Assembly: GCA_948567375.1 (NCBI GenBank)
Contig: OX419755.1
Span: forward strand, 59,841,945-59,905,944
Origin: Lunularia cruciata
Taxonomy: Eukaryota; Streptophyta; Marchantiopsida; Lunulariales; Lunulariaceae
Reading direction: 5' to 3'
DNA: 64,000 nt
A program made the position numbers and the translations under genes. Within the stretch, counting starts at the first letter, position 1, and the number at the start of each line of letters is the position of its first letter. The notes under the pieces were generated by a model. It ran no database searches, was not told where the DNA came from, and saw only the letters and a list, made by a program, of their open reading frames with translations. Of this stretch, positions 33,250 through 34,290 are shown piece after piece.

Positions 33250-34290
33250 AACCTCCAAAGTCAATTACCTTAGCTCCTTTGGACACCACACTTATTGCTT
33301 GGCAATATCCAATAGAGGAAGTATGTCTATTGGAGTTGTTTGGTGGGATTAGCATGGACTAGCTACAATACTACAGGCGGGTATACATGTATAGAGGTAC
33401 TTGTATGTGGAGAGAGATAAGACTGCTAAGCGAGTCTCTCTACATCATGTGGCACACTTGGCCTATCAATATCTTGAGTTGTTATAGATGTCAATAGTTA
33501 GGAGTTACCAAAAGACCCTACCATCCCAATAAACATTTCCTTGCTAGGAGCGTAGGATCTGGAGAGACATAGTCCTATTCATTTGGTGATTTTGGATGGC
33601 CATGTCAAGGACATACACGCATTGGTTGAGGTCTGGGTCTTCCCTATTTTGGTGTGTTATGGGAGGTATTATGTATATTATAACATCTCCAAGTTCATGA
33701 GTCCATTTCTCTAGATTGCATTTTGGAGAACATCCCTTCGATGGGTGATTCTTGTACGCGGGTGGTGGTGAGTACACACTAGGTCCATTCTTGGATGGGA
33801 CCTACCATGTTGTTGGATGTAACCAAAGTGGGATCACAGGCTCATTATCTTTGTCTTTGTCTTTGGTGGACAAACCTTTTACCCAAAGAGGTTCTATTGG
33901 CACTTATGATGGGATTCAACGACTTGACTACCTTATTATTCATGAGATTTTGGATGTTAGGTGCCAATCTCCAATGGTGGTTGTAGTTGATAGGTCATCT
34001 ATGGCAATGGTGAACCTAGTTAGACAGCTCCGAGCTGCTCTTCCCACACTTATGAGTTTACCAGGCTCTCATGCTTTTTGAAAGGGAGGTCTTGGACTTG
34101 TTTGGGACTCACAATTACAGTAGTTGGTGAAGTCTTATGCTGATGAGAGAGAGCGGTGATGGGTTTTTGCACCAATATTACCATTATTCCAATAGTGTTA
34201 GAGGTATCAAAGCATTAGGTGTTAGGTCAAGCTATGGACCTAAACTATTTGACATGGATTGTGAGCCTTGGCTTGGCAAAGTAGCATAGG
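33250..34290 (+). pseudogene. C5-cytosine DNA methyltransferase domain in element D polyprotein
   Basis: The translated blocks follow the motif order of cytosine-C5 methyltransferases. Motif I: VCLLELFGGIS (33321-33353), binding S-adenosylmethionine. The motif II area: RYLYVERDKTAKRV (about 33398-33440). Motif IV: WPCQGHTRIG at 33597-33626, with the PCQ catalytic loop at 33600-33608. Motif VI: ILENIPSMGD, ENI at 33726-33734. The motif VIII region: GSQAH...WWTNLLP (about 33830-33885). C-terminal blocks: ADERER (34139-34156) and VLGQAMDLNYLTWIVSLGL (about 34219-34275). Spacing and the AH...WWTN and LGQ..xxxxTW blocks look most like DNMT3-type enzymes; the motifs are not permuted as in plant DRM proteins. 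A frame change just before PCQ, another between the WWTN and RER blocks, and several stops make this copy inactive. Confidence 0.88.

Follow-up and report, generated by a model that had tools for sequence, protein, structure and literature searches.

Can a retrotransposon in a land plant carry its own C5-cytosine DNA methyltransferase (MTase), and what would it do with it? The question is raised by a locus of the liverwort Lunularia cruciata, lying in a window of 64,000 nucleotides (the whole stretch analysed: contig OX419755.1, C1:59841945-59905944, from an assembly that totals 565,766,749 bases over 74 contigs). An earlier note on this DNA had proposed that a Ty3/gypsy element holds MTase motifs in canonical order between its protease and its reverse transcriptase (RT), all on one strand. 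The window copy of this retrotransposon is old and dead, and it belongs to a large family with young copies in this plant. That the family is Ty3/gypsy with a true C5-MTase domain can be regarded as practically certain; both the motif order and the claim of a land-plant family with its own MTase are borne out, by database matches and by copies in the host genome.

The MTase domain of the window copy lies at 33264-34294 on the plus strand, where motifs I (LELFGGIS), IV (WPCQGHT) and VI (ENIPSMGD) precede a C-terminal block (LGQAMDL) in canonical order. It is broken into six frame pieces with ten stops, and Pfam searches on the separate pieces returned no MTase match, so that profile searches limited to one frame would have missed the domain here. 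Read through, with X at the stops, the domain matches 107 database proteins (PF00145) at E <= 0.001, which supplies the significant MTase match that the note had asked for. The best protein reaches E 4e-106, covers 99% of the query and shares 54% of its residues with it, and matches of this number and strength exclude chance.

Ten copies, selected for a long open reading frame 1 (ORF1), were fetched from the host genome. The order protease-MTase-RT, for which the note had suggested searching, is present in all ten, as are motif IV PCQ and ENV, and ORF1 spans 1,428 residues in six. One of the ten, L189, lacks both LGQAMDL and a PHD pattern and could not be matched to the integrase-PHD half. A first look with the retroelement MTase P0001 as query yielded 13,362 candidates, the best 111 of which all show 72-74% identity, 66 of these 111 being without a stop in the MTase. 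Genome-wide, the sequence pattern at the ORF1/ORF2 junction occurs 850 times when matched exactly and 2,342 times when relaxed, with 0 and 0 for the reversed control. As copies measure 9.4-10 kb (eight copies), 2,342 full copies would amount to 22-23 Mb, or about 4% of the assembly. The figure is calculated from pattern counts and not measured; some of the copies counted may be incomplete, and decayed copies escape the pattern.

What kind of enzyme has been captured? The earlier description as DNMT3-type holds for the fold and the nearest solved relatives, and is not reflected in the grouping of an unrooted tree. The motif order is the non-rearranged one of DNMT3, the closest solved structures by profile are DNMT3A/B (76 bits), then DRM (39), HaeIII (31) and HhaI (26), and DNMT3A/B is also the best fold match. 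Motif IV reads PCQ as in the host DNMT3 (PCQDLS), whereas human DNMT3 has PCN. In contrast to animal and plant DNMT3/DRM proteins, ORF1 of the young copy L180 shows no Pfam companion domain, save a sub-threshold gag match, and the retroelement MTases form a separate group: in an unrooted tree of 198 columns, built with joined host exons, they group alone at 90/84, whereas the host DNMT3 and DRMs join human DNMT3A at 99/98. The host genome has a DNMT3 (L209) and two DRMs. That the element took its MTase from this host DNMT3 in recent times was considered and rejected, L209 grouping with the DRMs and human DNMT3A.

The separate grouping would also fit an enzyme taken from a phage- or bacterial-type C5-MTase rather than from a eukaryotic DNMT3, and the phage MTase profile phrog_116 matches P0001 at 8.5e-24 over residues 43-354, nearly its full length. 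Nevertheless, DNMT3A/B remains nearest by profile and by fold, and the phage rows of the tree were picked by the PCQ pattern, 14 of 40 loci being kept after exclusion of rows with stops or with <=110 columns. With rows so picked, only 198 columns and no root, the tree cannot settle the origin of the MTase, and a phage or bacterial source appears possible though rather doubtful.

Related MTases are present in Marchantia, Riccia, Calypogeia, Sphagnum, Closterium and metagenome lineages; some of them (P0009, P0013, P0109) are labelled in databases as host 'DNA (cytosine-5-)-methyltransferase'. The MTase precedes RT in Marchantia P0113 and P0121, and the order protease-MTase-RT recurs in Closterium P0147. 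In P0129, P0134, P0140, P0141, P0145 and P0146, it lies between RNase H and integrase within one long frame, so the MTase has moved within the wider family. Searches of IMG/VR and GTDB contigs with P0001 found no relatives. A degenerate DNA pattern for AGWPCQG hit 40 viral and at least 117 genome loci, among which, as far as listed, only L056 belongs to the family (tblastn E <= 1e-6), the best phage-type match reaching 36%. L056 is labelled a cyanobacterial metagenome contig, yet it encodes gag-pol, and it is taken as a misbinned eukaryote contig. In metagenome bins labelled Synechococcales and Obscuribacterales, L056 encodes a eukaryote-type retroelement and P0026 the MTase of one, so that contamination of public bins is likely. 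The Sphagnum enzymes group with the Marchantia ones and P0001 at 96/88, apart from the liverwort Calypogeia, which is discordant with the host tree and reflects either old sister lineages or transfer between bryophytes.

How, then, is the enzyme placed in the element? In the fetched copies, ORF1 encodes Gag, protease and MTase and ends in a stop, behind which RT, RNase H, integrase and a PHD finger continue in the same frame. The stop reads TAG-CAG-CCA in all ten and in the window copy (34587-34595, plus strand), and TAG-CAA-TCA in L056, a distant relative (52% identity between the MTases of L056 and L180). Both are followed by an open frame in phase and fit UAG-CAR-YYA, described in the text available of PMC3542737 as the type I readthrough motif of tobamoviruses. 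Of about 100 places among the listed matches to the exact junction pattern, three have TAA, two a sense codon and the rest TAG; the looser pattern, which fixes the following CAR-YCA and leaves the stop codon free, gave 94 TAG, two TAA and four sense codons in the first 100 listed. This conserved context suggests that Pol is reached by leaky readthrough of the UAG.

The order RT - RNase H - integrase is found in L056, L180 and L183, and the window remnants agree with it. The PHD finger, behind the integrase, was detected in L056 (4.3e-10), L180 (5.2e-11) and L183, and a C4HC3 pattern stands at this place in nine of the ten fetched copies. MTase and PHD finger occur together in 5 of 11 scanned database proteins, the other six ending before the place of the finger. 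Of 95 solved matches to the L056 finger, the best are CHD4, PHF12, Cph2, KMT2D and UHRF1, with KDM5A/B, PHF21A and AIRE lower. Several of these matched proteins, not all, read histone H3 unmodified at lysine 4 (H3K4), and the retroelement finger may likewise bind histone H3.

The ends of the element are unusual. Young copies begin on the left with a repeat A1 of about 449 nt and close on the right with B1 (about 107 nt), the dinucleotide GC, A2 and B2; A pairs are 96.5-99.3% identical (seven copies) and B pairs 94.1-100% (eight copies). The ends read TGTC...GACA and are bordered by perfect 4-bp target duplications in 8/8 copies with both ends resolved, L185 and L189, neither of them with a complete pair of ends, falling outside this count. 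The B1/A2 joint reads GACAGCTGTC and is palindromic and circle-junction-like, a G-rich tract stops two bases before B1, and the A2/B2 joint connects, within about one base, the point where A1 ends to the point where B1 starts. L186 has A1...B1 only, with a perfect 4-bp duplication (ACTT), and represents either a circle with one long terminal repeat (LTR) cut in the same way or a copy that was shortened afterwards when B1 recombined with B2. In two of the ten copies, the leader holds an extra internal piece resembling the start of A2 (L181 1126-1259, L185 1105-1181), which in L181 also includes the end of B1; self-integration or gene conversion is possibly the source.

By its enzymes, the family is Ty3/gypsy, with a DDE integrase (rve core), a short target duplication and TG...CA ends; its repeats, in contrast, set it apart from standard LTR elements, since no identical complete LTR stands at both ends (A only at the left, B1-A2-B2 at the right). 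Elements of the DIRS/PAT order combine a tyrosine recombinase, absence of target duplication and split direct repeats, and only the last of these is found here. The split repeats and ends would fit reverse transcription into an LTR of the form B-A, closure into a circle, and a cut by integrase at the B/A joint. This layout may be a family mark, because the Klebsormidium element is reported, in the available text of PMC5890265, with DIRS-type repeats and Gypsy domains; A/B-type repeats were not found in L056, a negative of little weight, as the search covered 8,000 of the 9,285 bases of this contig and the contig begins inside the element.

These parts can be arranged into one course of events, which, together with the family as described, we hold to be somewhat on the probable side. 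ORF1 would be made in quantity and Pol (RT-RNase H-integrase-PHD) through leaky reading of one UAG stop. The MTase, because it lies in ORF1 upstream of this stop, would enter the particle at Gag-like amounts, where complementary DNA (cDNA) is made, and its most likely substrate there would be double-stranded cDNA of the element itself, methylated at integration or earlier. The integrase would be steered by the PHD finger, which resembles H3-tail readers; a circle of LTR form B-A would be cut at the palindromic B/A junction, and the integrase would join the TGTC...GACA ends with a 4-bp duplication. Integrated copies would then become methylated in CG and CHG and decay through deamination.

The decay itself can be read from old insertions. 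Compared with a young copy, the window copy shows C-to-T changes at 62/154 CG, 101/300 CHG and 82/734 CHH sites, with T-to-C changes at 58/1569; for the second family copy in the window, the figures are 18/45, 47/111 and 40/225, with T-to-C at 29/482. The MTase parts of nine more old copies (L159-L167) show CG and CHG decay well above CHH, L160 being the weakest. As C-to-T decay is concentrated in CG and CHG, these eleven old insertions were methylated.

Such decay would also be left if the MTase acted after integration, on host chromatin or the inserted element and not on cDNA, either as a brake on transposition or as a means of hiding. A PHD-bearing integrase could hold the complex at the target chromatin, and a brake benefiting the host is discussed by de Mendoza et al. 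in the text available of PMC5890265. Nevertheless, the location in ORF1 makes the MTase likely to be a particle protein, a brake is hard to reconcile with 2,342 junctions in one genome, and we consider a post-integration role unlikely. A still less probable alternative, which we judge quite improbable, is that the MTase is retained for RNA methylation, for binding nucleic acids in the particle, or for nothing, as a passenger. It draws on the Klebsormidium enzyme, which gave no methylation of DNA in yeast, a result called inconclusive by its authors (PMC5890265, in the text available). However, PCQ and ENV are kept in all ten copies, the MTase is retained in bryophytes, Closterium and metagenome lineages, and its ratio of nonsynonymous to synonymous polymorphism (pN/pS) among the ten copies is the lowest of the three ORF1 parts tested (0.34, against 0.50 for the upstream part and 0.69 for the ORF1 tail), values that are biased by picking copies for an open ORF1. 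The remaining alternative of chance, of a faulty assembly or of a host gene lying next to a transposon, to which only the badly broken and Pfam-null window copy lends itself, is ruled out for practical purposes by the common layout in 10/10 copies, the exact ends and duplications in eight, and the joining of MTase to RT in other species.

Methylation of cDNA by a particle-borne MTase remains the preferred course, and several points weigh against it. The activity of the MTase on DNA is a prediction, and binding by the PHD finger, readthrough and circle formation are likewise predicted from sequence alone. The yeast result and the pN/pS bias just mentioned count here as well. By eye, no clear site for a transfer RNA-type primer was found after A1. 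ORF2 is one open piece in none of the ten fetched copies, and no whole copy has, therefore, been seen. The decay pattern reveals methylation and not its agent, the host having its own DNMT3 and two DRMs, and a control family without MTase offered just 8 C or G in CG sites, too few to compare. Lastly, CG/CHG decay marks 11/11 of the old copies compared, so that self-methylation, should it take place, leaves insertions exposed to such decay.

MTase-bearing retroelements were already published for the charophyte Klebsormidium and the dinoflagellate Symbiodinium, in line with the earlier note, which named a charophyte alga and dinoflagellates, and as the available text of PMC5890265 confirms. By the description given there, KnitGypsy-Dnmt3 of Klebsormidium nitens has Gypsy domains, DIRS-like repeats, an MTase under purifying selection and CHG/CHH-methylated copies. 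The Lunularia family resembles it, at the level of description, in joining a Gypsy polyprotein with a Dnmt3-related domain to DIRS-like repeats. It differs in that the MTase of KnitGypsy-Dnmt3 is placed in the Pol ORF, whereas here it lies in ORF1 before the leaky-type stop; in its PHD finger, a word absent from the main text of that paper; and in its land-plant host with thousands of junctions. No protein named Klebsormidium was among the database matches of the MTase searches. SymbioDIRS-Dnmt3 and SymbioLINE-Dnmt of Symbiodinium share a captured C5-MTase, and the DIRS type also has two repeat sets; as described in the accessible part of PMC5890265, they are a tyrosine-recombinase DIRS element and a long interspersed nuclear element (LINE), whereas a DDE integrase and 4-bp duplications are found here. 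Orchid Ty3/gypsy elements with an N6-methyladenosine (m6A) demethylase domain, as described in the available text of PMC9289625, likewise show a gypsy element of plants that has taken up an enzyme modifying nucleic acids, albeit a different enzyme.

PAT-like (DIRS) elements have the split direct repeats A1-ORFs-B1-A2-B2. The same layout is found in Lunularia, but with an integrase instead of a tyrosine recombinase, TG...CA ends and 4-bp duplications. No land-plant retroelement with an MTase was found in the open-licence literature and, as far as that literature shows, the novel features are the occurrence in land plants, the great abundance, an MTase that sits in ORF1 ahead of a conserved stop of the leaky type, the PHD finger, and split repeats bordered by duplications of the integrase type.

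The window copy itself spans 22942-38521, as set by self-comparison and by a contiguous empty-site paralogue at 17698-19163 that aligns to both flanks. The PHD finger, the split repeats and the leaky-type stop of the family go beyond the earlier note, and the element is larger than the extent of 33250..34290 given there; it contains two younger insertions that are not part of it: a nested Ty3/gypsy element with 433-nt LTRs at 97% (25117-30794) and a solo LTR (31142-31812, 89%) from the family of the element at 6262-14114. These two insertions and, save for the target duplications, the parts of the two family copies given next lie on the plus strand, the domain order (Gag zinc knuckle, protease, MTase, RT, RNase H, integrase, PHD remnant) having been obtained by tblastn with relatives. 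The 5' target-site duplication, AACA (4 bp, 22938-22941), differs by one base from the 3' one, AATA (38522-38525; 3/4 same). Repeat A1 forms the left end (22942-23383, 83% identity to A2). The first segment, at 23617-25116 (self-BLAST 72%), also present in the second copy at 60339-61819, would correspond, from the layout of young copies, to the leader and 5' part of gag. A decayed Gag zinc-knuckle (CCHC) region follows at 30836-31051 (tblastn with Marchantia P0059, 51%), and then a retropepsin-like protease remnant, VLLDSDAxPLMLGKA, at 32560-32920 (tblastn with Sphagnum P0013 and L056); the corresponding motif is DSGA in L180, and Asp_protease_2 is matched in L056 at 7.8e-4, below the Pfam cut-off. 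Behind the MTase and the stop, broken RT and RNase H occupy 34629-36134 by Pfam and tblastn (RT 2.4e-13 at 35211-35492; RNase H 1.7e-28 at 35688-36080), followed by a broken integrase with H2C2 and DDE core (36218-37204, 50% to L056). The PHD remnant, Pfam-null, lies at 37545-37622, at the end of a 37311-37622 block aligned with L056. Repeats B1 (37855-37956, 93% to B2), A2 (37964-38409) and B2 (38415-38521) close the right side, the end of B2 being placed by comparison with young copies. The second copy (59165-64000, MTase start about 63594) ends at the window edge and is 70-77% identical to the first in aligned parts.

Elsewhere in the window, a very young Ty3/gypsy element without MTase (6262-14114) has 692-nt LTRs at 99.86% identity and a 1,611-residue open gag-pol frame (8539-13374), and it sits in a 92-nt tandem array. 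Tandem arrays of 81-, 46- and 92-nt units, 93-97% matched, flank it at 4518-6261 and 14115-14414. A 642-residue open frame at 42893-44821, with a UVSSA N-terminal domain and DUF2043, is probably a host DNA-repair gene. On the minus strand of this nuclear chromosome, 46267-46336 matches an Rfam group II intron at 41.7 bits (cut-off 40), perhaps an organelle insertion. Beyond the window, the host assembly holds a LEAFY gene whose DNA-binding part reads MRHYVHCYALH, the type found in liverworts and vascular plants and not that of mosses or hornworts.

Plants rely on cytosine methylation as a main defence against retrotransposons, a picture that is inverted by a family carrying the writer enzyme itself. 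A 2019 paper, in the text available (PMC6338049), held methylase-bearing transposons to be absent from land plants, such as tracheophytes, and built its argument on loss; contrary to this, bryophytes do have MTase transposons, and one plant has them in abundance. Lunularia has a genome roughly double the size of the Marchantia one; the available text of PMC9985172 attributes this to Ty3/gypsy bursts, and the family may bear on the difference. In its boldest form, advanced here tentatively and thought unlikely to hold in full, the picture would be that of a self-marking retrotransposon equipped with chromatin writer and reader alike: an MTase supplied at Gag-like amounts ahead of a leaky stop would methylate cDNA within the particle, an H3-reading PHD finger would aim the integrase, and integration would start from circles cut at the palindromic repeat joint. 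On this reading, the family would have contributed to the doubling of a liverwort genome and would have resided in streptophytes since before land plants. What a retrotransposon gains from a DNA methyltransferase, a question left open in 2018, is now directly testable, because young copies are many and the host can be grown.
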